From positions 1-34,000 of the forward strand of contig JAFUVE010000055.1 of NCBI GenBank assembly GCA_017483765.1: DNA of 34,000 bases, given 5' to 3'. Every line of letters starts with the position of its first letter. Within the stretch, counting starts at the first letter, position 1. Origin of the DNA: Bacteroidaceae bacterium (GTDB lineage: Bacteria; Bacteroidota; Bacteroidia; Bacteroidales; Bacteroidaceae). Positions 11,501 to 23,442 of the stretch are shown piece after piece. A program made the translations under genes and the position numbers. The notes beneath the pieces are model-generated. The model was not told the DNA's origin. It did no database searches and saw only the letters and a program-made list of their open reading frames with translations.

Positions 11501-12289
11501 CCGGACGGCTGCAACCGTCTTGCCCGTAGCAGTGAGCGTGCCGTTGCTGGTGATGTCACCCTCTTTCGACAAGACTCCGAACGTTCCGATTGCCGTGACG
11601 TTGCCGTTCAGCTCGATGGTTTGACGCGCCTGGATACCGGGCTGTTGCTTGTCGGCATCAGCGATGAGTGTACCCTTTGTAATGATGAAGCTGCCATTCT
11701 CAGCCATGATTCCTCCGCTGATTTGCTGTAGTCCGTTGTCAATCTGAACGTTTCCCATTGCATAGATACCCTGGTGATTGTCTTTGGCACCAGTGACATG
11801 CACCTGCCCGTTGATTCTCACGCTTCCTTGGGCATAGAATCCATATCCGGGGGAACTCATTGAGATATTGCCTCTCAGATTGATGTTTCCGTCTGCCATC
11901 GCGCCATAGTTATTGGAGCTTCCTCCGACAAAGTCGTTGGACAGGTAGATATCGCCCGTGGTCTTGATGCAAATGCCTTTGGCAGCCACCTGAAGTTTTG
12001 CACTGGAATTGAGAGACTTGACCTCAATCGCATTGATTCCGTCGTACATCTCGCGGTTGTCAACGGCCAGATAGTATCCACCGTTGTCTTCGATCGTCAG
12101 ATTGTAGTCGCCCTTGATGTAGCGTATCATCCGGTCCATGTTGACCACAATCTTGGTGTCGCCTGTAAGCACCACCTCCGCATAGTCGGGCAGCTGGCTG
12201 GAATAGACCGTTCCCGACACCTGCTTCTGTGCATGGAGCAATGGTATGCTCATCACACAAAGAAAGAATAAAATTGTAAATCTTTTCAT
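8567..12289 (-). CDS. Large secreted surface protein: beta-helix, Ig-like (BIG2) and dockerin-type modules
   Basis: A 1240-aa protein with a signal peptide (M-K-R-F-T-I-L-F-F-L... ending L-H-A-Q). Residues ~30-400 and ~975-1180 consist of short beta-strand turns (G-N-V-T-L, G-D-I-T-S, G-N-I-K-I types) like a right-handed beta-helix. Residues ~893-971 form a bacterial Ig-like group 2 domain (W-S-S-S-N-T-D-V-A-K-V-D and a T-A-T-T repeat tail). The last ~55 residues hold two dockerin-like calcium-binding repeats, each D-V-N-E-D-K-K-V-D-I-S-D-I. In Prevotella-like bacteria such C-termini occur on exported proteins. I infer an extracellular or surface protein that binds or displays polysaccharide; no catalytic site is visible. 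The frame is open to 12370, but the ATG at 12289 starts the signal peptide. Confidence 0.9.
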   Translation of the reverse strand: MKRFTILFFLCVMSIPLLHAQKQVSGTVYSSQLPDYAEVVLTGDTKIVVNMDRMIRYIKGDYNLTIEDNGGYYLAVDNREMYDGINAIEVKSLNSSAKLQVAAKGICIKTTGDIYLSNDFVGGSSNNYGAMADGNINLRGNISMSSPGYGFYAQGSVRINGQVHVTGAKDNHQGIYAMGNVQIDNGLQQISGGIMAENGSFIITKGTLIADADKQQPGIQARQTIELNGNVTAIGTFGVLSKEGDITSNGTLTATGKTVAAVRAEKGNVTLRGTVNLTGKLNGASAKKDLIVNADLTGKTTDWLNEYFQEESKSVLYGQNVTIEDGNVELKSEKSWGIFAMKEVSLYGNIKIYAEASNGCAVMSGETLYVKGGNILLKARRHGTGSLLDEARYRVGDEQAISVGAIKLTPPMAITWPEHASIKVTPATSSNPYSRATVIDEDDEYYWLSGARHVEFAAPQLSGDVSIQSAAVIPPGTTLGYKLSGMVDSLYKAGVEINAEWQKSSNLQDWTALEGDSNNGYTTTTADLGQFIRVHVSSPSYNGSLVSLVREVQKNKCTASVTPPTLTTEGTQVVVTNASGLQEYIILTEKKDVTKLSSSDWASAKTKTDVSTTNLQMGGTAYAMNYVYTRVKETETTLAGTDVAMEAIYLGSTTELQSIKLVPYHLTIRINKQTGAITYGRSALTVERDDYYYVDLNEKLVLYINTYPSDAAFDGILGWMWTQQASNTFGGERGEFYADAACTQKLVSNERYKRVYYKPMVTGTYYVAARTGGTNDTNDECFLIVGEDGVYPLGNMNNEYIRVNKGETAEGTGLRYTPYHASLANLNIRPLEGYGDYGDGTAVPVVTLIEDNSNFSVNAENANAGIYRYNIYDGELKTCYIDVWVTESSVEEMAIMPENISGVEGDTIQLSVAFTPSNASVPVTWSSSNTDVAKVDENGQLVFTGKKNVGEATTITATTADGKTATATATVAGDVYDLWIAGVQVTSANKDELIEIVAEKDDEAMEYFLDKGGSIKFDGFDLTLRDAMVPAVTDWGIASKIDGMTINLEGENMVNGKTMGLELGKATTITGDGSLTAKGEMKGIDFVSNTEGDALTIKNTTVTAIGSLGICAYSNKSHVLNIENSSVVADADQYGIYNWTGGINLSGCDVVVPSAYILTNGSVYDQNSDEMVSYVKIEPSADNSHLKGDVNEDKKVDISDIVAVINQIAGTATYRYADVNEDKKVDISDIVAIINIIAGQ
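8609..8725 (-). repeat. Duplicated dockerin-repeat coding segment
   Basis: Two identical 30-bp stretches (8609-8638 and 8696-8725) encode the two copies of D-V-N-E-D-K-K-V-D-I. Exact nucleotide identity points to a recent duplication or gene conversion of the calcium-binding loop within the gene. Confidence 0.85.
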
Positions 12290-12389
12290 AATTATAAAAA
12301 TTTTGGAGTAATTTTGTTTGGTGTAATTTTGTAAAGTAGGTTTAGTTGTAATTAGGGATGATTCCCTCACCTCTTGTCTTAATTCAAGT

Positions 12390-12566
12390 TTATTTGGGCT
12401 GATTCGTCTTATCCTGTTTGGCTAAAATCTGTTGTACCTTCTTTTCGACGATTTTGTCGATTTTCTCTTCCACATTCCTTCCCACAACAGACTCAAGCTC
12501 GAGCATCTTGCTCAAGTATTCTTTGGCATATTCCATAGCCGCTTCCTGATATTTTGTCTTAGCCAT
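12390..12566 (-). CDS. Small charged, helical protein (58 aa), unknown function
   Basis: A short reading frame from ATG at 12566 to TAA at 12390. The protein (start M-A-K-T-K-Y-Q-E-A-A) is almost wholly charged or helix-forming, with a likely amphipathic or coiled-coil stretch V-E-E-K-I-D-K-I-V-E-K-K-V near its C-terminus. It has no cysteine and no signal peptide. A -7-type box (TATCTTTG, 12610 to 12603) lies 37 bp upstream of the start, which supports expression. It precedes the large surface-protein gene on the same strand with a 100-bp gap. It could be a small cytosolic regulator or a structural protein. I recognise no family. Confidence 0.65.
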   Translation of the reverse strand: MAKTKYQEAAMEYAKEYLSKMLELESVVGRNVEEKIDKIVEKKVQQILAKQDKTNQPK

Positions 12567-12602
12567 TGTGAGTTTGATGTAATGAATATGATTTCACGAC
12601 TG

Positions 12603-12610
12603 CAAAGATA
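12603..12610 (-). promoter_or_regulatory. -7 box for the 58-aa gene
   Basis: TATCTTTG on the minus strand fits TAnnTTTG. The nearest upstream TTTG is only 11 nt away, so the -33 element is uncertain. Confidence 0.45.
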
Positions 12611-12782
12611 CGTCAGAACGTCAAATCAGATATTATCATTTCGTGAAGAAATCTTATCATTTTGTTTAATTCATAGATTTTATGGGCATTTGCGAAGGTT
12701 TTGAGGCAAAAAAAAGAGGGGGTGTAGACTCCCAAACGGCTGCCTTTACTTTATCAAATGATATTGTTTTTCTCATTCATTT

Positions 12783-12814
12783 TTTGCTTATTTCACGGAT
12801 TTTGTCTAAATTTG
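12783..12814 (+). promoter_or_regulatory. Promoter of the HAD phosphatase/esterase pair
   Basis: TTTG (12783-12786), 20 nt, then TAAATTTG (12807-12814). This is an exact Bacteroidetes promoter layout. It leaves a leader of about 130 nt before the gene at 12951. Confidence 0.75.
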
Positions 12815-12950
12815 CGGTCAGATTGCGAATTTGGATTTTCCCCATCGTCCATATGTTCGCTATCGCCTTTGCGAAAACGAAATAATTTTGATTTAAAAAA
12901 CTCATCTGCTATTATAATATTGTCAGCATTGTTTGACAAAAAACTCAAAA

Positions 12951-14045
12951 ATGGAAGAAAAAAAACAAATGATGAAAACGATTTTGAAATGGATGCTGGC
13001 CGCCATCCTGATTTGCGGTCCGATGTCGTTCACATCGTGTTCGAAAGACGATGACACGGTTGTGGTGCCAAGTCAGAAAGAATATTTCACTCAATGGAAC
13101 TCATGCGAAGCCTTGAGCGCCCTGAAAGAGTACGTGGAAGACGTGACAAACCCCAGCTCTGCAAACTTCATCAAGGAAGAAGACCGAATTGCCACGTTCG
13201 ACATGGACGGTACGTTCGTAGGCGAGCTCTACCCCACCTATTTTGAATACAACATGCTGGAATACCGTGCCTTGGAGGACGAGACCTACAAGGACATTGC
13301 TCCCGCCGACGTGAAAGAGGCCGCCCAGGACATCCGCGACTTCGTGCGTGAGGGCAAGCCCCTCCCCTCGCATTTCGACATGAAGCACGCCCTTGCGGCA
13401 GCCAAGGCCTACGCAGGGATGACCTTGGCCGAGTTCGACGCCTACGTGAAGGCATATGCCTCCAAGCAAGCCAACGGCTTCCAGGGCATGACCTACGGCG
13501 AAAGCTTCTACAAGCCGATGCTGGAGGTATTCAACTACCTGAAAGCAAACGGCTTCACATTCTATGTTGTCTCAGGTTCCGACAGATTCATCTGCCGTGC
13601 CCTCGTTGAGCCATTGGGGATTAGTCCCAACCGCGTGATCGGTATGGACGTGAAGTTACGTTCGAGCAGCCAGGGTACAACAGCTGGCGTGAACTACACG
13701 ATGGGCAAGGAAGAGGACATCGTCAGAACTGACGAGCTGATTATCAAGAACCTGAAGACCAACAAGGTGCTGCAGATCAGCCAGGAGATAGGCAAAGTGC
13801 CTGTCCTCTCGTTCGGCAACAGCGGCGGTGACTGCTCGATGCACAATTACTGCCTGAACAACAGCTACCGTTCTGAGGCCTTCATGCTGATAGCCGACGA
13901 CGATGAGCGCGACCATGCCAACCGCGAGAAAGCCCTCACACTGGGCAATCAATGGCGAGAGGCCGGCTACCACGTGATTTCGATGCGTGACGACTTCAAG
14001 ACCATCTACGGCGAAAACGTAAAGAAAGTGGACTTTGAATTTTAA
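12951..14045 (+). CDS. HAD-superfamily phosphatase, predicted lipoprotein
   Basis: A 364-aa protein from the ATG at 12951. ATGs at 12969 and 12972 would also give a complete lipoprotein signal, so the exact start is open. The signal is a hydrophobic stretch and lipobox S-F-T-S-C (Cys30). The HAD motifs follow: motif I T-F-D-M-D-G-T with Asp84 and Asp86, motif II Y-V-V-S-G-S-D near 205-211, and a C-terminal acidic motif S-F-G-N-S-G-G-D near 287-294. The large insertion after motif I suggests a C1-type helical cap, as in phosphoserine-phosphatase-like members. The substrate is unknown, and activity would be outside the cytoplasm. It is followed after 22 bp by a secreted esterase, probably in one transcript. 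Confidence 0.88.
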   Translation: MEEKKQMMKTILKWMLAAILICGPMSFTSCSKDDDTVVVPSQKEYFTQWNSCEALSALKEYVEDVTNPSSANFIKEEDRIATFDMDGTFVGELYPTYFEYNMLEYRALEDETYKDIAPADVKEAAQDIRDFVREGKPLPSHFDMKHALAAAKAYAGMTLAEFDAYVKAYASKQANGFQGMTYGESFYKPMLEVFNYLKANGFTFYVVSGSDRFICRALVEPLGISPNRVIGMDVKLRSSSQGTTAGVNYTMGKEEDIVRTDELIIKNLKTNKVLQISQEIGKVPVLSFGNSGGDCSMHNYCLNNSYRSEAFMLIADDDERDHANREKALTLGNQWREAGYHVISMRDDFKTIYGENVKKVDFEF

Positions 14046-14067
14046 AACCATCTGACATAAAAAAATT

Positions 14068-14922
14068 ATGATGAGGAGATTATTATTCATGACTTGCCTG
14101 CTGACGTCGAGCATGTGCGTCTGGGCAGGAAGAGTGGTGACCGACAGCATCGTCAGCCAGAAATTAGGCGCCACAGTGAAATACAATGTCTATCTGCCGT
14201 CGGGCTATGAACGCTCACAGGAACACTACCCTGTGACCTACCTGCTTCACGGGCTGACCGACACCTACACAGCATGGGACCAGAAGGGCGGCATGCGCGA
14301 GATCACCGACGAGCTCGTGGAGAGCGGCGAGTCGAAGGCGATGGTGATCGTGATGCCAAACGCCGGTGGTCCCGACGTGAACAATATCTGGAACGGCTAT
14401 TTCAACATGCCCGGATGGAGCTATGAGGACTTTTTCTTCGAGGAGCTGCTCCCTGCTGTTGAGCAGAAATACCGTTGCGGCGGAAAGAAGGAGCAGCGAG
14501 CCGTGATGGGCCTCTCGATGGGTGGTGGCGGCAGCACATCCTACAGCCAGCGTCACCCCGACCTGTTCTGCGCCTGCTATGCCATGAGTCCCTGGCTGAG
14601 CAGCGGCCCCGGCCGTGAGGGCCGCAACGGCGAGAAGACCAAGATGTACTACACGTCGGAGGCTGTGCGTCAGCATTCCGCACTTGCCTTCATGGACAGG
14701 GCCGACGACGCAGTGAGAGAGCAGCTGAAAAGCGTGAAGTGGTTTTTCGACTGCGGCGACGACGACATGCTCCTTGGCGACACGTTCGAGCTGTACAAGA
14801 AGATGCGCCTTGGCGGCATCAAGGCCGAGCTGCGCGTTCGCAACGGCGGTCATACGTGGGAATACTGGCGCGCCGCGCTGCGCACCGCACTCCCGTTTGT
14901 ATCGCGCAGTTTCAAGGAGTGA
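14068..14922 (+). CDS. Secreted CE1/esterase-D-type alpha/beta-hydrolase
   Basis: A 284-aa protein with a short signal peptide (residues 1-20, ending W-A-G). It has the family's L-L-H-G-L-T-D oxyanion region at 59-65, the nucleophile elbow G-L-S-M-G-G with Ser150, an acidic residue in F-D-C-G-D-D-D (about 231-233) and catalytic His262 in N-G-G-H-T-W. This is the layout of carbohydrate esterase family 1 and S-formylglutathione-hydrolase-like enzymes. Secretion favours removal of acyl or feruloyl groups from glycans, but this is inferred. It shares a transcript with the upstream phosphatase. The first two codons are both ATG, and either could initiate. Confidence 0.9.
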   Translation: MMRRLLFMTCLLTSSMCVWAGRVVTDSIVSQKLGATVKYNVYLPSGYERSQEHYPVTYLLHGLTDTYTAWDQKGGMREITDELVESGESKAMVIVMPNAGGPDVNNIWNGYFNMPGWSYEDFFFEELLPAVEQKYRCGGKKEQRAVMGLSMGGGGSTSYSQRHPDLFCACYAMSPWLSSGPGREGRNGEKTKMYYTSEAVRQHSALAFMDRADDAVREQLKSVKWFFDCGDDDMLLGDTFELYKKMRLGGIKAELRVRNGGHTWEYWRAALRTALPFVSRSFKE

Positions 14923-15013
14923 AACCGACCCAAATTGGAGGTGATGATGTAGGCCCATTGAAGAAGAGCTGCCGTTTTCTCACAAAAAACATTAAATAAG
15001 TGATATCATTGAC

Positions 15014-15042
15014 TTGTATCTCAAATTTTATCCCTAACTTTA
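15014..15042 (+). promoter_or_regulatory. Possible promoter of the restriction-modification pair
   Basis: TTG (15014-15016), 18 nt, then TAACTTTA (15035-15042), which differs from TAnnTTTG at the last base. It lies 18 bp before the first gene of the island. The match is moderate. Confidence 0.45.
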
Positions 15043-15060
15043 CATTCAGATTAAAAGGAC

Positions 15061-16077
15061 ATGCCGTTTGGAATAGACATACAAGAAGATGAAATACAGT
15101 CATGGGGACATGAGATTCTTGAAACCATGCTCCTTGACCGAACCACAGGTGAGAATATCATCTGGGCTACGGATGACTATGCCTCAAGGGGGGAAGCCTA
15201 CACATTCTTCCAACATATAACCCCTGAACTGATAACAGGGGAAAACAAATATATCATCCAGCCCCGTGTGGCTAAGAATGAGGTGGAAAGGAAAAGAAGA
15301 GCAAGGAAAATGGCGGAGGTGTTTACACCGTCGTGGGTGTGCAACCTAATGAATAACGGCGTTGACCATGCATGGTTCAAGCGAGAGCCCGTTTTCAACG
15401 TCACTTCTCTCAAGGACGGAAAACACATTTGGACTCCAACGGAAGAAAAGATAACATTCCCTGATGGAAAGACATGGCAGGAATACGTCAGCATGGGAGT
15501 GCTGGAAATCACTTGTGGAGAGGCTCCCTTTCTGGCAAGCAGATATGACACGGTGACAGGAGAAGCCATCACAGAGTTGAACAGACGTATTGGATGGTTA
15601 GACAGGAAATTGCGTATCGTAGGAGAGAACACTGACACTCGTGAAGACTGGCTACATTGGGCGAAGATGGCGTTCAAGGGTACACTGGGGTATGAGTGGC
15701 AAGGCGACAGCTTGTTGCTGGCAAGAGAGAACCTGCTGATGTCTTTCTTTGATTATCACGAAGACAGATTTTGTGAAGAACCCGCCATTGAAGACGTGAA
15801 GGAAATCGCAGAGATTATTTCGTGGAATATTTTCCAGATGGACGGTTTGAAGTTCGTCATTCCCCGCAGCTGCCATTCCAAAGTCATAGAGACTAAAGAT
15901 CTTATCACAGGCGCAGTGATACGTAAGGAAATACCATGCGAAGGCTGCAAGAAAGGCCTGATTCACAGGCACAATGGAATATATGTGAACACAATGGATT
16001 GGGAAACCGACAAAATTGTAAGATTCGACCAGCTGGGCGATCTTCCTAAAATAGAGACACTCAAATATGAACACTGA
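15061..16077 (+). CDS. Methyltransferase-like 'subunit M' of a restriction-modification-like system
   Basis: A 338-aa protein resembling the N-terminal half of an N6-adenine DNA methyltransferase. Motif X is E-V-F-T-P-S-W-V-C-N-L-M (86-97). A motif-I-like L-E-I-T-C-G-E-A-P-F-L (148-158) follows, and S-W-N-I-F-Q-M-D-G-L (254-263) resembles motif II. No NPPY catalytic motif is visible. Motif I is altered: the second glycine of the usual C-G-x-G is replaced by Ala. The C-terminus has a small Cys/His cluster (P-C-E-G-C...H-R-H) that may bind zinc. Families of this type are annotated 'restriction endonuclease subunit M', but I know of no experimental account. Its last 11 bp overlap the next gene, implying translational coupling and a joint complex. 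Confidence 0.8.
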   Translation: MPFGIDIQEDEIQSWGHEILETMLLDRTTGENIIWATDDYASRGEAYTFFQHITPELITGENKYIIQPRVAKNEVERKRRARKMAEVFTPSWVCNLMNNGVDHAWFKREPVFNVTSLKDGKHIWTPTEEKITFPDGKTWQEYVSMGVLEITCGEAPFLASRYDTVTGEAITELNRRIGWLDRKLRIVGENTDTREDWLHWAKMAFKGTLGYEWQGDSLLLARENLLMSFFDYHEDRFCEEPAIEDVKEIAEIISWNIFQMDGLKFVIPRSCHSKVIETKDLITGAVIRKEIPCEGCKKGLIHRHNGIYVNTMDWETDKIVRFDQLGDLPKIETLKYEH

Positions 16078-19000
16078 AATTGTCGATAAAATCATTGTTG
16101 GTCGCATCGAGCCGCATATTTACGCCTTTGAGACGAATACCGTGCCTAATTATCTGAAGATAGGTGACACCTATCGTCCTGTCGAGGACAGGCTGAGGGA
16201 GTGGCGTAGTCATTATGAAGATCTGGTTAAGCTCTACGAACACGAAGCGAAAGTTGATGATAAATATTTCAGAGACTTCGAAGTACACAAGTTCGTGACA
16301 GAGGTAAAAAAGCGAAATCGCATAACACGGGAAAAGTTCCCCGGCCTCTCTTATTTCTCCAACGAGTTCTTTGAACATGCTGTACCTTCCGACATCGACG
16401 AGGCCATCGCAGACATAACAGACAGCGCAAAGAAGAACGATGGACGATACAAGTTCTATTCGATGCAAGACGGACGTTTGCCAGACATGTTTCATTACAG
16501 CCGTGATGAAGAGCCCCTGACCCCACGTCCGAATCAGGCTGATGCCATCGAACGCTTTGAGATAGCCATCAACAACAAGCGTACACATCTGTTGATGTAT
16601 GCCGTCATGCGCTTTGGAAAATGTTTCACGGCAATGTGCTGTGCACAGAAGATGGATGCCGCCTTGGTGCTGGTGGTTTCTGCTAAGGCCGATGTGAAAG
16701 GGGAATGGAAGAAAACGGTAGAGAAATTTAAGAACTTTGAAGAATACCAATACGTTTCCAGTGATGACTTGAAAGCCAACCACAAGTTAATAGCAGATGC
16801 GAGGAAGGAAAAACAGAAGATTGTCGTATGCCTGACCCTGCAAGACCTGAGCAGCAAAGAGATAAAGGAACGGCACAAGCAACTTTTCAGCCAGTCTGTT
16901 GACTTGCTGATTGTGGACGAGACGCATTTTGGAGTCCGTGCCGAACATTATGGCTCGGTGCTGGCTAAAGCATCAGCCGACAAGGTGCCGGCTCAAGAAA
17001 AGAGGCACAATGACGAATCGGTAGATGACCTGCTGGAACAGACACGACAGTTGAAAAGCAAAGTACAGCTACACATGTCTGGTACACCCTACCGTATCTT
17101 GATGGGCAATGAGTTTTCGAAAGAGGACATTATATGTTATTGCCAATTTACAGACATTATAGAAGCCAGCAGAAAGTGGGACAAGGAAAACCTCGACACA
17201 AAGGAAGAATGGGAGAATCCATACTTTGGCTTCCCCCAAATGGTCAGGTTTGCTTTTCATCTCAATGCTTCTGCTATCAAGAAACTGGAGGAACAGAAAA
17301 AAACAGGTGTCTCAACAGCATTCCGTGAACTTTTCAGTCCGTTGTCTATCAAAAAAAGTAAAGAAGGCAAGCACATTGTTTTCAGACATGAGCGAGAAGT
17401 CCTCGATTTTTTGCAAGCAATCGACGGTTCAAAGGATGACTGTAATGTGATGGGATTCCTCGACAACGAGCGTATCAAGCAGGGTGACTTGTGCCACCAT
17501 GTCGTTATGGTATTGCCTTATCGTGCTTCGTGTGACGCGATGGAAAATCTCATCAGAAAGCATCGAAAAATTTTCAACAACCTCTCACAATACGAGATAT
17601 TGAATATTACAGGTTTTGAGAGTGGGCGGATATACAACAACCTTGCCAACGTCAGAAAAAAAATTGAGGACTGTGAAGCCAAGGGCGAAAAGACACTGAC
17701 CCTGACAGTCAATCGTATGCTGACCGGTTCTACTGTGCCACAATGGGACACGATGCTCTACCTGAAAGAGACAGAATCACCACAAGAATACGACCAGGCA
17801 GTCTTCCGTTTGCAGAATCCTTATGTTGTGACTTATACTGATGATGAAGGCCACATCTCCAAGCGAAACATGAAGCCACAGACATTGCTGGTGGATTTCG
17901 ACCCGAACCGTATGTTCTTCCTTCAGGAACTCCGTGCACATATTTATGACATCAACACAGATGCCAACGGAAACCGTCACCTAATGGAACGAATAGAGAA
18001 GGAGCTGAAAGTTTCCCCCGCTATTTGGCTGAATAAAGACAAGCTTCAAGAAGTTACGCCAAACGACATCTTAAACTTCATCCGCAAATACTCCAGCGAA
18101 AGAAGCATTTTGGACGAGGCAAAAGACGTGCCAATTGACCTCTCGTTGATCGACATTGACGAACTCCGCGAAGAAATTATGCGTCAGCAGCCAATGGGTA
18201 CACGGGGTGGGCTGAAGCTAAATCCCTTAAAAGAAGAGGGCGAAGACGATATTGACTTGGATGGAACTGGTTCGAAGCCAACGGACAACCAGGCTAACAC
18301 ACAATCTGCAACAGATAAAGAGAAGAAAGACGATGCTTCACTGGACAAACGAATACTCACGCTCTATTCACGTTATCTTTTCTTCGCATTCCTCACAAAA
18401 CATCATGTTCTTTCCCTTCAAGACATCATTGAGGTGATTGAGGAGAACGATGATAATAAGCGGATAGCAAAGCATCTTGGTATCAGCAAGAAGATGGCAG
18501 AGCTGCTCTACAAACACCTGAATCCATATTCACTCCATGAGCTTGACTACAAAATTCAGAACATCAACGACCTTTCCAACGATGAAAGCAAACAGCCAAT
18601 AGAACGAGTGGAAAACGCTATGCGGCAGTTCGGACGTTGGTCTGAATCGGAGGTTGTGACCCCCATAGAAAAAGTGGCTTTGAGAATGCTGAGGCAGATA
18701 CCTCACGACAGAATCCCAGCAGATGCGAAGTTCCTGGATATAGCATCTAAAGAAGGAGAGTTTGCTTACGCAATCCTGCTGGAGTTTGGCGATAAATACA
18801 AAGATAAAATTTACTCTATACCGACATCATCCATAGCCTACGAATTTACCCGAAAGGTGTACGAGGCTTTGGATATGCCAGTTGAGAATATAGCAAGTGA
18901 TTATAATTCATACGACCTCATTGGCAAAAATGCCGAAGAGATAATAAAAAAGATAAAAGCTATGGGAATAACAGTAACGGTGGGCAATCCTCCTTATCAA

Positions 19001-20008
19001 GACGAAGGTGGTTCCGGCGGAACTAACGACGCACCGATTTTCCAGGATTTCAGCAGAGTATCTAAGACGTTGTCAAATCCTTTCTCAACACTCATTATAC
19101 CTTCGAAGTGGTTTACAGGCGGTAGATCTAACTTGCTCGACCCATTCCGTAGGGAGATGCTGACATGCAGCACGATTTCAGAGCTGACCGCCTTCCATAA
19201 TGCTGGTGATTTGTTTCCAAAGGATGTCGAGATAAAAGGCGGTGTTTGTATCTATTTAAATGATGACGAGCATCATGGTGAATGCAAGTATTCTCTGGAG
19301 AAAAGCGGAACTATTGAAACAGCCCAACTGGATTTAAAGGATTTGGATGTTATTATCCGCGAGCCGAAGTTGGCAAAAATTGTCGACAAAGTGATGCACA
19401 AAGCACGCAAAGAAAATCTTGGCGTTGTGGAATCTTATATATCAGCTGACACCCCGTTCGGAATACCAACAAATCCAAGAACCAGCAAGAAAACTCCTTT
19501 TAATATAAGTGATGAAGCCAATGATGAATATAACATTAAACTTCATTACTGGATAAAGGGTTTTAGGAAAATAGCTTATGTGAAGAAGGCTGATGTACGT
19601 AAAAACTCCAAAGACATCGATGCGGTCAAGGTATTCATCCCCGCAGCAGGTGGTTCAGGAAATGACCAGCTTATTCTTGGGCATCCCATTTTAGAGACTA
19701 GTCCTTCTGTCTGTTCACAAACTTATTTATATATGAAATTCAACACGGAAAATGAGGCAATAAACTTCATCAGTTATCTAAAAACAAAATTTTTCCGTGC
19801 TTTGATCTCTGCAATGAAAATTACACAGCATGCGCAGACGTCTGTCTATCATTTCGTACCAATGCAGGACTTCTCCCACCCTTGGACAGACAAGGACTTG
19901 TACGAGAAATACGACCTGTCGCCAGATGAGATTGAGTATGTGGAGACAATGATAAAGCCGATGGCGGACAATGATGCAAAACAAACAGAACTGAACTTCA
20001 ACGCATGA
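16067..20008 (+). CDS. Fused GIY-YIG-like nuclease / SF2 helicase / N6-adenine methyltransferase
   Basis: A 1313-aa protein with three parts. (1) Residues ~15-105: a T5orf172/GIY-YIG-like nuclease (I-Y-A-F at 18-21, L-K-I-G at 30-33, R42, E100 in N-E-F-F). (2) Residues ~150-640: a superfamily 2 helicase/translocase with Walker A-like M-R-F-G-K (181-185), Walker B L-I-V-D-E-T-H (281-287), S-G-T-P (338-341) and motif-VI-like Q-A-V-F-R-L-Q-N-P (577-585). (3) Residues ~860-1313: an adenine methyltransferase with a motif X-like stretch, a degenerate motif I (L-D-I-A-S-K-E-G-E-F, 890-899) and catalytic N-P-P-Y (974-977), then a probable target-recognition region. An acidic linker separates helicase and methyltransferase. 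This is a single-chain cut, move and modify architecture, paired with the upstream gene. Confidence 0.85.
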   Translation: MNTEIVDKIIVGRIEPHIYAFETNTVPNYLKIGDTYRPVEDRLREWRSHYEDLVKLYEHEAKVDDKYFRDFEVHKFVTEVKKRNRITREKFPGLSYFSNEFFEHAVPSDIDEAIADITDSAKKNDGRYKFYSMQDGRLPDMFHYSRDEEPLTPRPNQADAIERFEIAINNKRTHLLMYAVMRFGKCFTAMCCAQKMDAALVLVVSAKADVKGEWKKTVEKFKNFEEYQYVSSDDLKANHKLIADARKEKQKIVVCLTLQDLSSKEIKERHKQLFSQSVDLLIVDETHFGVRAEHYGSVLAKASADKVPAQEKRHNDESVDDLLEQTRQLKSKVQLHMSGTPYRILMGNEFSKEDIICYCQFTDIIEASRKWDKENLDTKEEWENPYFGFPQMVRFAFHLNASAIKKLEEQKKTGVSTAFRELFSPLSIKKSKEGKHIVFRHEREVLDFLQAIDGSKDDCNVMGFLDNERIKQGDLCHHVVMVLPYRASCDAMENLIRKHRKIFNNLSQYEILNITGFESGRIYNNLANVRKKIEDCEAKGEKTLTLTVNRMLTGSTVPQWDTMLYLKETESPQEYDQAVFRLQNPYVVTYTDDEGHISKRNMKPQTLLVDFDPNRMFFLQELRAHIYDINTDANGNRHLMERIEKELKVSPAIWLNKDKLQEVTPNDILNFIRKYSSERSILDEAKDVPIDLSLIDIDELREEIMRQQPMGTRGGLKLNPLKEEGEDDIDLDGTGSKPTDNQANTQSATDKEKKDDASLDKRILTLYSRYLFFAFLTKHHVLSLQDIIEVIEENDDNKRIAKHLGISKKMAELLYKHLNPYSLHELDYKIQNINDLSNDESKQPIERVENAMRQFGRWSESEVVTPIEKVALRMLRQIPHDRIPADAKFLDIASKEGEFAYAILLEFGDKYKDKIYSIPTSSIAYEFTRKVYEALDMPVENIASDYNSYDLIGKNAEEIIKKIKAMGITVTVGNPPYQDEGGSGGTNDAPIFQDFSRVSKTLSNPFSTLIIPSKWFTGGRSNLLDPFRREMLTCSTISELTAFHNAGDLFPKDVEIKGGVCIYLNDDEHHGECKYSLEKSGTIETAQLDLKDLDVIIREPKLAKIVDKVMHKARKENLGVVESYISADTPFGIPTNPRTSKKTPFNISDEANDEYNIKLHYWIKGFRKIAYVKKADVRKNSKDIDAVKVFIPAAGGSGNDQLILGHPILETSPSVCSQTYLYMKFNTENEAINFISYLKTKFFRALISAMKITQHAQTSVYHFVPMQDFSHPWTDKDLYEKYDLSPDEIEYVETMIKPMADNDAKQTELNFNA

Positions 20009-20041
20009 ATAGGATGCGTAAGGACAAAGGAACCTGATTCA

Positions 20042-20146
20042 TTATAGGGGTGTTCTATAAATTCTGATTTTGGCATGCTCCTACTAAATAACACTCACAT
20101 AAAATTCAAAATCAATCCGACATAATTTATATAACACCCCCTATAA
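20042..20146. repeat. 105-bp imperfect inverted repeat (MITE or IS-end remnant)
   Basis: The outer arms TTATAGGGGTGTT (from 20042) and AACACCCCCTATAA (to 20146) are inverted copies with one extra C. The match continues inward through TATAAATT/AATTTATA and TGATTTTG/CAAAATCA. The whole can fold into one long hairpin and carries no gene. It looks like a small non-autonomous transposable element or fused IS ends. It could also act as a terminator for the preceding pair. Confidence 0.65.
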
Positions 20147-20300
20147 GCATTCGGGCACGAAAGAATCAGAAGTTTCAATTGTCTTTTGCAGGCAAAAAAA
20201 ATATTACTGGAATTGCAGCGTTACAGATTCCCAAAAGCATATTTTACGTTTACATTGTTAAATAATGTGATTTAATGACACTTTATTCGTTGAAAATCGC

Positions 20301-20308
20301 TAACTTTG
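20301..20308 (+). promoter_or_regulatory. -7 box of the DUF4468 gene
   Basis: TAACTTTG fits TAnnTTTG, 31 bp upstream of the ATG at 20339. No good -33 TTTG is present at the expected distance. Confidence 0.6.
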
Positions 20309-20338
20309 CAAGAAATTAAAAATTTAAGCAGAAAAACT

Positions 20339-20980
20339 ATGAAAAAAATGTTGATGGCATTGGTGGTGGCATTGCTGCCGCTGTGCATGGCAGACGCCCA
20401 GGGACTGTTCTCGAATAAAGAATACGCCGGAGGACGTCAGCCGAGAGAAGCCTATATGCAAGGCGCCGTTCCTGAAGTTGACGGCAAGGTTGTATTCAGC
20501 AAGACCTTCGACACGAACGGCATGAGCAAGTTCGACGTTTACATGAAACTGACGCAGTGGGCCACGTTCCGCTACAATCCGTCGACAGAGCGGGGAAAAT
20601 GGAACGACGCCGACTACTTCAAGAACACGGAGTTTGCCCGCGTGCTTGAAGCCAGCGCAGAGAAAGGCATCCTGAAGATCCAGGGGAACGAAGAGATGGT
20701 GTTTACTAACAAGACATTAGCGAAGGACACCGCCATCGCCTCTTATATCCTCATGCTGACAATCGAGGACGGCAAAGTGAGCGCCGAGCTCCGCAACATA
20801 TCCTACACCTACAGTCTGACAGATACCCCTCAGCGAATTGAGGCCGAGGACTGGATAACCGACAAGGAGGCTATCACAAAGAATAACAAACTGAACCGCG
20901 GCAGCGGAAAGTTCCGCGTGAAGACCATCGACCTGAAGGACGAACTGTTCAAGGAAATCCAGGAGAAAATAGAAGTTTGA
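20339..20980 (+). CDS. Secreted DUF4468-type protein
   Basis: A 213-aa protein with a signal peptide (M-K-K-M-L-M-A-L... ending A-D-A-Q). The body resembles the Bacteroidetes DUF4468 family: V-F-S-K-T-F-D-T near residue 50, an aromatic-rich segment of about 35 residues, a central I-A-S-Y-I-L-M-L-T-I-E-D-G-K strand pair, then E-L-R-N-I-S-Y-T-Y. Function is unknown; the family is described as having a TBP-like fold. The frame is open to a TTG at 20306, but the ATG at 20339 begins the signal peptide, and the -7 box at 20301-20308 overlaps the longer version. It is followed by a small membrane protein gene and a porin gene. Confidence 0.85.
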   Translation: MKKMLMALVVALLPLCMADAQGLFSNKEYAGGRQPREAYMQGAVPEVDGKVVFSKTFDTNGMSKFDVYMKLTQWATFRYNPSTERGKWNDADYFKNTEFARVLEASAEKGILKIQGNEEMVFTNKTLAKDTAIASYILMLTIEDGKVSAELRNISYTYSLTDTPQRIEAEDWITDKEAITKNNKLNRGSGKFRVKTIDLKDELFKEIQEKIEV

Positions 20981-21000
20981 AATTTGAGATTTGAGGTTTA
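20975..21000. repeat. Tandem 7-nt repeat overlapping a stop codon
   Basis: GTTTGAA, ATTTGAG, ATTTGAG, then GTTTA. The first unit contains the stop codon of the DUF4468 gene. It is a degenerate member of the heptad family seen at other junctions. Confidence 0.7.
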
Positions 21001-21119
21001 TTAACATGATTTTCGGCTGTGCTCGGCAATATTGAGGTTTATTGCCATGCGAACTGATGTGCTTCGGCAAGGAGGCGAGAGATGGAAATCACAAAAACCA
21101 ATTTGATTAATAGAAAAAG

Positions 21120-21377
21120 ATGAAAGAAGACGAGGTAGACGAGATAATCGCCAAGGCCGTAGCGGAAAGCAAGGGCAAGAAATGGCACCGTCCGAAGCAG
21201 AAGAGCCAAGGCATAGAGAAAGCCCGCTCAGTGCTGAACATATTGTTCATGATAGGATTTCTCGCAGCCATCATCATTTATTTTGCCATGCCCGAGCAGA
21301 AAGCGCTGTTCTTCAGCGTGGGCTTTGGTGCCTTGATATTGAAAATCATAGAGTTCGCCTTGCGGTTTTTGTTTTAA
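21120..21377 (+). CDS. Small inner-membrane protein, unknown function
   Basis: An 85-aa protein. The N-terminal ~35 residues are highly charged (E/D then K-rich) and presumably cytoplasmic. Two hydrophobic segments follow at about residues 37-56 and 63-84, separated by P-E-Q-K. No family is recognised. It ends 13 bp before the porin gene on the same strand, so the two are likely co-expressed. Confidence 0.75.
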   Translation: MKEDEVDEIIAKAVAESKGKKWHRPKQKSQGIEKARSVLNILFMIGFLAAIIIYFAMPEQKALFFSVGFGALILKIIEFALRFLF

Positions 21378-21390
21378 AAAGAAACGATAG

Positions 21391-23442
21391 GTGCAGAAAA
21401 GAATTTACATCATACTGACATTGACGGTCCTGGCTTGCCTGGCAAGTCAGGATTTGTTGGCTCAACGTGTCATCCGCGACTTGGAGAGCAATGCCGATCT
21501 TGGTGACGTGCCTACCGACACCATCGAGGGTAAAAAAAAGAAGAAGTTCGTGCCAGTGGACGTTGTGGCATGGACGATAGACCCAATCTACGGCCGCCGC
21601 ACACCCGTAGACGTCGACACCCTTCAGCACGAGTTCCAGAACAAAGCCTATCCCGAAGGGGTTCACGGCGAGATGAACAGCCTGGGCAACCTGGGTTCGC
21701 CCCGTGAGAGCCGTATTTTCATGGATCGTGAAATCCAGCACGACATGCCATTTATCACGAACATGGACCAGTTCATCGAGTCGCCGGAGGCATACAAATA
21801 CTACAACACCAAGTCCCCTTATGTAAACCTGTCGTACGACTGGTGTGGCACGAAGACCAGCGGATACGACAACTTCAAGGCCATATACACGAACAACGCC
21901 GGAAAACGTCTGAATTTCGGCGGTATATTCCACTATATGTACGGACAGGGCAATTACGACAACCAGCACACCGCTTTGATGAACGGGACAGGCTGGTTTT
22001 CGTATGTGAACGACCATTATGACCTCCACCTGCATTATTCGCACTACGACATGAAACTGGAGGAGAACGGAGGTATCGTCGACGACAACTACATCACGAA
22101 CCCCGAGTCCATGCCCCGGCGCTACAGCTCCGGCGACATCCCGACCAGACTGAGCAACACTTGGTCGCGACAGAACCACGACGTGCTGACCCTCAACCAC
22201 CGCTACCACCTGGGTTTCAACCGAGTTGAAGAGATCGACTCTGTCACGACGAATGAATATTTCGTGCCGGTGACCAGCGTGTTCCATCAGGTGGAGCTGG
22301 GCAATTACCGCCGCCGTCTGATATCCCGCGACAAATGGCAGGACTTCTACTCCTACTCCTATCTGCCCAACGACACCGTCAATGACCTCTATACACTCAA
22401 AAACTTCTACACACGTGGCGGTATCACCCTCCACGAAGGCTTTAACAAATATGCGGTAGCTGGTCTGAGCGCCTATGTCGGATATGCCCACAGGGAATAC
22501 GAGATGCCCGACACGATTGCCGGAGCCAACTATTCCATACCGTCGAAAGCAAAGCTGAAAGAGAACGACGTGCTGGTGGGTGGCCGTATAGAGCGGAGCC
22601 AGGGCACCTATGTGCACTACAATGCCGACGCGGAGTTCGTGGCAGCCGGCACCAACATCGGCGACCTCATCATCAACGGACACGGGGAACTGAACGTGCC
22701 CATTCTGGCAGACACAGCCCAGCTGGCCGTCGACGCCACGGTGAGCAACCTTGCCCCCTGCACCTACTTCACGAATTTCCACTCGAAGTACTACTGGTGG
22801 GACCAGGACCTGAAGAAAGAGAAACGAATCCGCCTGATGGGAACCCTCTCCTACACGAAGACAGACACGGAGCTGACGTTCGGAATGGAGAACGTAACAA
22901 ACTATACCTATTTCAAGAACACCGGCATACTGTCGACAAATAGCTCCGGTGTAGAATTCTACTCCCACCACGCCACAGTGCTTCAGGAAGGAAGCGTGCA
23001 AGTGCTGATGGCCCGTCTGAGACAGAATCTCGCACTGGGTCCCGCTCACCTGGAGGCCGACGTGGTGTGGCAAAAGTCTACGAACAATGATGTACTACCC
23101 CTGCCCTCTCTCTCCGTTTACGCGAATCTGTATTTCAAGTTCGTGTTGGCAAAAGTGCTGAAAGTGGAGCTGGGAGGCGACATGAAATATTTCACAAAAT
23201 ACTATGCACCCGACTACGACCCTGTGCTGGCCCAGTTCATGGTGCAGAACGACAACACGAAAGAGAAAGTGGGCGGCTACCCGCTGTTCACGGTCTATGC
23301 GAACCTGGCCCTGAAGAAACTGCGTTTCCACATCAGCTACTACCACTTGAACCAAAGCGACGGCCGCTATTTCACGATGCCTCACTACCCGATGAACCCG
23401 AAAGGCCTGAAATTCGGCATCAGCTGGAATTTCTATGACTGA
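21391..23442 (+). CDS. Putative outer-membrane porin (Porin_10-like)
   Basis: A 683-aa protein starting at GTG 21391 (no upstream ATG in frame) with a signal peptide ending L-L-A-Q. The mature protein has alternating aromatic/polar strands throughout (Y-V-N-L-S-Y-D-W, H-Y-D-L-H-L-H-Y-S-H-Y) typical of an outer-membrane beta barrel. It ends with strand ...L-K-F-G-I-S-W-N-F-Y-D, an aromatic-rich terminal strand. Near the N-terminus P-T-D-T-I and W-T-I-D-P-I-Y-G are features shared by Bacteroidetes proteins annotated 'putative porin'. The substrate is unknown. It is followed after 74 bp by rfbD, with a short heptad repeat between them. Confidence 0.87.
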   Translation: MQKRIYIILTLTVLACLASQDLLAQRVIRDLESNADLGDVPTDTIEGKKKKKFVPVDVVAWTIDPIYGRRTPVDVDTLQHEFQNKAYPEGVHGEMNSLGNLGSPRESRIFMDREIQHDMPFITNMDQFIESPEAYKYYNTKSPYVNLSYDWCGTKTSGYDNFKAIYTNNAGKRLNFGGIFHYMYGQGNYDNQHTALMNGTGWFSYVNDHYDLHLHYSHYDMKLEENGGIVDDNYITNPESMPRRYSSGDIPTRLSNTWSRQNHDVLTLNHRYHLGFNRVEEIDSVTTNEYFVPVTSVFHQVELGNYRRRLISRDKWQDFYSYSYLPNDTVNDLYTLKNFYTRGGITLHEGFNKYAVAGLSAYVGYAHREYEMPDTIAGANYSIPSKAKLKENDVLVGGRIERSQGTYVHYNADAEFVAAGTNIGDLIINGHGELNVPILADTAQLAVDATVSNLAPCTYFTNFHSKYYWWDQDLKKEKRIRLMGTLSYTKTDTELTFGMENVTNYTYFKNTGILSTNSSGVEFYSHHATVLQEGSVQVLMARLRQNLALGPAHLEADVVWQKSTNNDVLPLPSLSVYANLYFKFVLAKVLKVELGGDMKYFTKYYAPDYDPVLAQFMVQNDNTKEKVGGYPLFTVYANLALKKLRFHISYYHLNQSDGRYFTMPHYPMNPKGLKFGISWNFYD

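Follow-up and report, generated by a model that had tools for sequence, protein, structure and literature searches.

Two adjoining genes in a 34,000-nucleotide stretch of DNA from a Bacteroidaceae bacterium (assembly GCA_017483765.1, contig JAFUVE010000055.1, positions 1 to 34,000; the whole stretch is called the window here) raise the question of how two proteins, each with only part of the motif set of an adenine methyltransferase, could form a working enzyme. Gene 1 (M1; 15061..16077, 338 aa) and gene 2 (16067..20008, 1313 aa) lie on the forward strand, as do all of the features within them. Both open reading frames are intact and, as an earlier note on this DNA had stated, they overlap by 11 bases (16067..16077). 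The answer in which we have good confidence is that the pair forms a restriction-modification system that depends on ATP and belongs to the DrdVI split-methylase kind. M1 would supply the half that binds S-adenosylmethionine (SAM), the C-terminal part of gene 2 (M2C) would supply catalysis and target recognition, and the domain preceding it (M2N) would be a holder that is devoid of SAM.

Gene 1 was found to carry the motifs of a SAM-binding half-methyltransferase, with no motif IV. Motif X (EVFTPSW, residues 86-92; 15316..15336), motif I (LEITCGEAP, residues 148-156; 15502..15528), motif II (EWQGD, residues 212-216, with the acid at E212; 15694..15708) and motif III (NIFQMDG, residues 256-262, with D261; 15826..15846) were all present, and E86, V87, F88, T89, P90 and W92 of motif X were invariant in an alignment of ten sequences. 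Among 124 unique gene-1-type proteins, motif X was detected in 122, the motif II acid in 122 (116 E and 6 D; two were unmatched by the pattern) and the motif III Asp in 120 (two had Asn and two were unmatched); the motif I core was CGEAP in 120, CGEGP in three and CGENG in one. An NPPY-type catalytic motif was found in three of these proteins, all of them long fusions, and in none of the 121 unfused relatives. Gene 1 matched the PADLOC profile PDLC03390 (MTase_II, 'Type II methyltransferase') over residues 3-325 (E = 4.2e-118). There was no Pfam or NCBIfam match, and a sequence search of the PDB gave no relative at E up to 10.

The missing motif is found in gene 2, which combines a nuclease-motor part (R) with M2N and M2C. 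M2N, the putative pseudo-SAM half (residues ~842-966; 18590..18964), was placed by an AlphaFold2 model and its fold match. In its altered motif I, FLDIASKEGEF (LDIASKEGEF at 18734..18763), the position of the first Gly is occupied by Lys (18749-18751), and at the motif II position, YSIPTS (18812..18829), there is no acid. M2C (18965..20008), the probable catalytic and target-recognition half, contains motif IV, read as GNPPYQ in VGNPPYQ (residues 973-978; 18983..19000), and a Pfam Eco57I methylase match (residues 940-1050, E = 7.9e-12) overlaps its start. The model of M2N-M2C had a pLDDT (predicted local distance difference test) of 85.5 and matched gamma adenine methyltransferases over model residues 60-502; the enzymes matched by the gene 2 model were those in which the target-recognition domain (TRD) follows the catalytic domain. 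A PDB sequence search with gene 2 gave just two rows, both phage gateway proteins at E of about 0.08, and matches to RuvA, E217_gp29 and DUF416 were set aside as sub-threshold.

The altered motifs of M2N were conserved. Of 116 unique gene-2-type sequences with an NPPY-type motif, four that start at the motif and one unrelated methyltransferase (L141|617) were removed, which left 111; Lys occupied the first-Gly position in 109 of these (103 by pattern and six by reading) and Thr in two. The two Thr-bearing sequences, from loci L095 and L134, were the sole such cases. A motif II acid was sought in 136 sequences, a set that partly overlaps the Lys set, and was found in none of the 111 that could be classified; at least three of the 25 unclassified sequences were unrelated proteins. 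These counts across relatives indicate that M1 has SAM motifs without catalysis and that M2 has catalysis with a rebuilt SAM site. A profile of the short M1 proteins described below also picked up M2 proteins, at E values down to 4.3e-11, which points to a relationship between the two N-halves, M1 and M2N.

The motifs read in the earlier note, namely motif X and LEITCGEAPF without NPPY in gene 1, and NPPY with a motif I that lacks Cys-Gly in gene 2, were confirmed. Its description of the motif I changes as defects was not: the Ala of CGEAP was ruled out as a defect and, judged by its conservation, is a family trait, as is the Lys of SKEG. The complementarity of the two proteins was upheld and had been stated too weakly, since gene 1 keeps E212 and D261 and gene 2 is without the motif II acid.

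The arrangement of the modules in other genomes suggested which halves belong together. Four layouts were distinguished. In layout A, the DrdVI arrangement, M1, M2N-M2C and R are separate proteins, and in layout B, that of the window, M1 is followed by R-M2N-M2C. Layout C consists of M1, an M2C that begins at NPPY, and R-M2N (L179, L184 and L268-L270), and layout D of an M1-M2C fusion and R-M2N (L180, L181, L183 and L221-L226, nine fusions). A further example of layout C was observed on a Bifidobacterium longum plasmid (L083), where M2C is broken shortly after NPPY by an IS256-family element. Loci L221-L226 came from a search of 391 genomes of the class to which an Oscillospiraceae genome belongs: 24 genomes gave a match of any kind, six had the layout D fusion, and in all six the gene next to the fusion bears an M2N with MKSG. 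Along the layout D chain come motifs X, I, II, III and IV and then the TRD, an order that is normal for adenine methyltransferases of the gamma class; the SAM half of M1 is in register with NPPY, and M2N is at the C-terminus of the motor protein. Among 18 proteins of 900-1200 aa, seven had an M2N domain, each with the Lys; the KSG pattern was matched by 10/10 motor proteins, although the pattern itself demanded KSG. Comparison of layout D with layouts A and B shows M2C joined either to M1 or to M2N. Because the M1 half is fused directly to the NPPY and recognition half, with M2N left on the nuclease-motor protein, gene 1 and the C-terminal quarter of gene 2 most likely make up one adenine methyltransferase.

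Linkage of the two genes was consistent. A scan of named genomes matched at least 589 stretches, 581 of them encoding relatives, and the best 80 of these 581 were taken as loci. In 71 of the 80, the R-M2 gene or its start was within 60 bases 3' of M1, at a spacing of -121 to +24 bases; of the other nine, five had a gap of 60-1500 bases, one had a longer gap, one differed in orientation and two were at a contig end. The divergent case, in Capnocytophaga bilenii (L127), was the only one among the best 80. Gene 1 was present in 12 of 247 genomes, its own included, in an even sample of the order to which the window belongs, and a gene-2 relative of 1316-1345 aa adjoined it in 10 of the 11 others, the eleventh having a 120-aa fragment. 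A search with gene 2 across the phylum matched 35 of 395 genomes. Record titles among the matches listed extended beyond Bacteroidota to Clostridia, Bacilli, Treponema, Campylobacter and Helicobacteraceae. In 23 of the 29 loci L025-L053 the matching protein was not a fused gene 2 but an M2 of ~480-600 aa, many of these loci having a separate nuclease-motor match. Among the 28 loci L054-L081, which were taken with longer flanks, 19 had a short M1 of ~210-280 aa, which carries the SAM motifs but lacks NPPY and is placed upstream of M2 directly or across one small open reading frame, and six had the gene-1 type, which in L061 and L080 was away from M2; no M1 of either type was found in the remaining three. 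The heteromeric enzyme suggested in the earlier note was supported by this adjacency, by the complementary motifs in the subfamilies covered and the M1-NPPY fusions, and by published N6-methyladenine (m6A) formation with cloned M1 and M2 of the same family.

The recognition part of gene 2 behaved differently from the rest. Co-variation was measured in 85 gene-1/gene-2 pairs that fell into two classes (34 and 51), three of 88 pairs having been dropped as unclassed. Windowed distances along gene 2 tracked those of M1 and R, and the tracking dropped past NPPY. For the larger class, correlation coefficients with M1 were 0.69 just before NPPY, 0.44 across it and 0.08 after it. The motif I type of gene 2 in the window belongs to the smaller class, in which correlations were weaker throughout: 0.34, 0.38 and 0.18 with M1 and 0.46, 0.33 and 0.17 with R at the same three positions. 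From these distances, the part after NPPY looks like a cassette that is exchanged independently, as TRDs are. A specific co-evolution of M1 and M2N was considered and rejected, as none was left once R was accounted for (partial correlations of -0.07 and 0.10 in the two classes). The correlation of M1 with M2C was also low (0.37 and 0.18). The co-variation result is therefore neutral on direct contact of M1 with M2N or M2C, and speaks neither for it nor against it.

The remainder of gene 2 agreed with the nuclease and motor that had been proposed for it. The predicted GIY-YIG-like nuclease domain (IYAF...LKIGDT; 16115..16396) was recognised from MUG113 and T5orf172 matches, both of which we take to be relatives of GIY-YIG, and from the invariance of Y19, K31, G33, T35 and E100 in an alignment of 12 rows. 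The match of the window copy to MUG113 (E = 0.004) was below the cut-off of that profile; among 12 N-termini of the family, T5orf172 matched in eight (best E = 4.2e-8) and MUG113 in seven. The first part of the superfamily 2 (SF2) motor (16520..17092) was matched by Pfam ResIII (PF04851, residues 152-342, E = 2.4e-11), and the protein as a whole by PADLOC PDLC03626 (REase_MTase_IIG, 'Type IIG'; 1098 bits, residues 4-1299). The Walker A motif, RFGKC, has a Cys codon (TGT; 16622..16624) where relatives have Thr or Ser: among 134 sequences, with duplicates kept in, Cys was found in the window copy only, Thr in 96 and Ser in 37. This substitution may weaken the motor ATPase, and with it the restriction arm, of the window copy, or it may be an artefact of assembly or a mixture of strains.

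Taken as a mechanism, M1 would provide motifs X, I, II and III, and M2C would add the TRD and the catalytic NPPY. The two would jointly methylate adenine at N6, with a single strand of an asymmetric site as the probable target. The GIY-YIG-like nuclease and SF2 motor would translocate along DNA and cut at unmodified sites. M2N, its SAM motifs rebuilt, most likely binds no SAM and would fasten M2C to the motor, and the proteins encoded in the window would form a complex. The basis for this proposal is the motifs and their conservation, the linkage, the module permutations and the predicted M2N-M2C fold; m6A formation in the family comes from the work of others. A tentative and rather doubtful extension is that M2C swaps partners, pairing with SAM-bound M1 for methylation and with the M2N of the motor protein for translocation and cutting. 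Modification and restriction would then be mutually exclusive, because the edge strand of M2C would pair with one N-half at a time. To our knowledge, no restriction-modification system has been described that switches between modification and restriction by swapping half-folds.

Other explanations place the methyltransferase activity elsewhere. If gene 2 were by itself a full methyltransferase, able to bind SAM with an unusual motif I of the Lys type, and gene 1 an accessory or regulatory relative, then the good confidence with which M2N-M2C was predicted as a whole gamma methyltransferase fold would be expected, as would the strong conservation of the motif I Lys and second Gly, which resembles that under functional selection. 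However, the motif II acid was missing from every classified M2N whereas M1 retains its SAM motifs, nine fusions join M2C to M1 and leave M2N on another protein, and in published work M1 and M2 were cloned together (PMC6430315 and, in the portion consulted, PMC10113651); we consider this explanation improbable. Least probable of all is a pair of whole folds like METTL3-METTL14, with gene 1 as an allosteric SAM sensor and gene 2 methylating with weakly bound SAM. The homology of the SAM halves, shown by the short-M1 profile, is what such a pair would display, but the SAM-binding subunit of METTL3-METTL14 also bears the catalytic motif. M1 carries that motif only when it is fused to M2C, and the fusions set its SAM half in register with NPPY.

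It is also unlikely that the locus is decaying in the genome of the window and is now a modification-only system or an inactive relic. The unique Walker A Cys would fit such decay, as would the decayed phage copy described below, and the assembly, with 105 contigs and ~70% completeness, leaves room for a strain mixture or an error; on the other hand, both open reading frames are intact and carry the methyltransferase motifs that a member of the family should have. The split enzyme, with M1 and M2C acting as one methyltransferase, is the explanation that we prefer.

Viral copies of the system were varied. In Tenacibaculum phage PTm1 (L082, record 189366-202352), the M1, gp279, is intact, and gp277 is an M2C that starts from NPPY. 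This arrangement was considered as a minimal, phage-made version that would prove the split, and was ruled out: what is left of the N-half is still present upstream, in different frames, and the locus is a decayed copy. No NPPY-type protein was found in the stretch of 12 of the 27 viral M1 loci. When the search was widened to those 12 viral records and two others, M2C-like DNA was found elsewhere in one of the 12, where it encodes a 1927-aa R-M2N-M2C-like protein ~70 kb from its M1 (L250, a 233-kb viral contig, record 33500-42000, and L189), an arrangement which indicates that phages can carry the system with its parts unlinked. No M2C match was found within the records of 11 viral contigs with M1 (L176, L182, L185, L186, L188 and L190-L195), several of which are fragments, as all 11 may be, and two of which exceed 340 kb; their M1 proteins may be SAM halves that phages carry for use with an M2 of the host.

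The pair was the sole copy detected in its own genome, and its neighbours encode HAD, esterase, DUF4468 and porin proteins by Pfam. The nearest gene-1 relative among the best 80, with 77% identity, was from an uncultured Prevotellaceae genome, which makes Prevotellaceae the probable family of the host. The locus had been described as an A+T-rich island that ends at a repeat resembling a miniature inverted-repeat transposable element (MITE). In 1-kb windows, guanine plus cytosine (GC) content was 0.42-0.47 across 15001-20000 compared to 0.53-0.56 across 13001-15000, so that the left edge is real; 3' of gene 2 it rises slowly, from 0.45 at 20001-21000 to 0.49 at 21001-22000 and 0.53-0.55 after 21501, and there is a further minimum of 0.38 at 12001-13000. 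The island label is fair, though its borders are not sharp. The MITE-like repeat was confirmed at ~20041-20146 (20041..20146, no strand assigned), outside the enzyme, with 63 match rows for partial copies spread over many contigs of the genome, several of them two half-copies more widely spaced than in the window copy.

The family is large, with at least 589 stretches matched in the named-genome scan, and in the annotated records consulted its parts are named 'restriction endonuclease subunit M', 'restriction endonuclease', 'N-6 DNA methylase', 'Eco57I ... domain-containing protein' or 'hypothetical protein'. A single enzyme made of M1 and M2C would account for possible failures of methylome assignment when one gene is taken alone, and would mean that both genes have to be cloned. 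Exchange of the cassette after NPPY would make the prediction and swapping of specificity plausible, and the pseudo-SAM half raises the question of how an ATP-dependent enzyme chooses between marking and cutting DNA. If the proposed reading is true, its nuclease-motor probably destroys unmarked foreign DNA.

With respect to known systems, the layout had been thought to fall outside standard Type I, IIG and III arrangements. It is non-standard, but it is already known in outline as a DrdVI-type split methylase, and the fused gene 2 is already represented in a defence database by its near full-length PADLOC match (PDLC03626), as is gene 1 (PDLC03390); the PADLOC names carry no hint of a split or a pseudo-half. 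Unlike the Eco57I-like Type IIG enzymes, whose single chain combines a nuclease with a full SAM-plus-NPPY methyltransferase, gene 2 is without a canonical motif I or motif II acid and has an SF2 motor. Type ISP enzymes such as LlaGI and LlaBIII have no M1 partner, and each of their chains unites a complete methyltransferase with an Mrr-type nuclease. Gene 2 does not have their complete set of SAM motifs in a single chain, and its N-terminus gave no Pfam match to an Mrr-type PD-(D/E)XK nuclease, its relatives being GIY-YIG-like. There is no separate HsdS gene among the neighbours, as there would be in Type I. In the part consulted of PMC4996451, Btr188ORF1790/ORF1760 of Bibersteinia trehalosi has an N-end like that of M1.DrdVI and a C-end like that of M2.DrdVI and lies near a GIY-YIG protein, but is reported as frameshifted or fragmented and inactive. 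The consulted portions of PMC5608340, PMC4081073 and PMC7365801 hold nothing on the split-methylase family, and no description of the four layouts, the pseudo-half or its fixed Lys was found in our searches of the open-licence PMC literature.

Judged from its sequence, the pair is the two-gene layout of the published DrdVI-type kind. DrdVI itself, from plasmid pDrdVI of Deinococcus wulumuqiensis, has three genes, M1.DrdVI, M2.DrdVI and DrdVI (212, 539 and 851 aa). Its M1 also has SAM motifs and no NPPY, its M2 has a Lys motif I (LDPCTKSG) and NPPYQ, and its R has a GIY-YIG-like N-terminus and an SF2 motor. M1.DrdVI was found by the gene-1 profile at E = 1.4e-6 compared to 0.021 by plain BLAST; gene 2 was 33% identical to M2.DrdVI over 354 aa (E = 1.6e-48) and 24% to R.DrdVI over 841 aa (E = 3.9e-46). 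The pair in the window differs in that R and M2 are a single 1313-aa protein and in that M1 is longer, by ~70 residues ahead of motif X and by ~35 from motif X to motif I. When M1 and M2 were cloned together, they gave m6A for DrdVI (PMC6430315) and, according to the part consulted of the MaeIV work, m6A at GCACY (PMC10113651). When the Y of GCACY is T, the opposite strand can carry an adenine. GCAGCC has the complement GGCTGC, in which there is no adenine. Two M genes with one methylated strand would be better explained by a single enzyme in two parts than by a separate enzyme for each strand.

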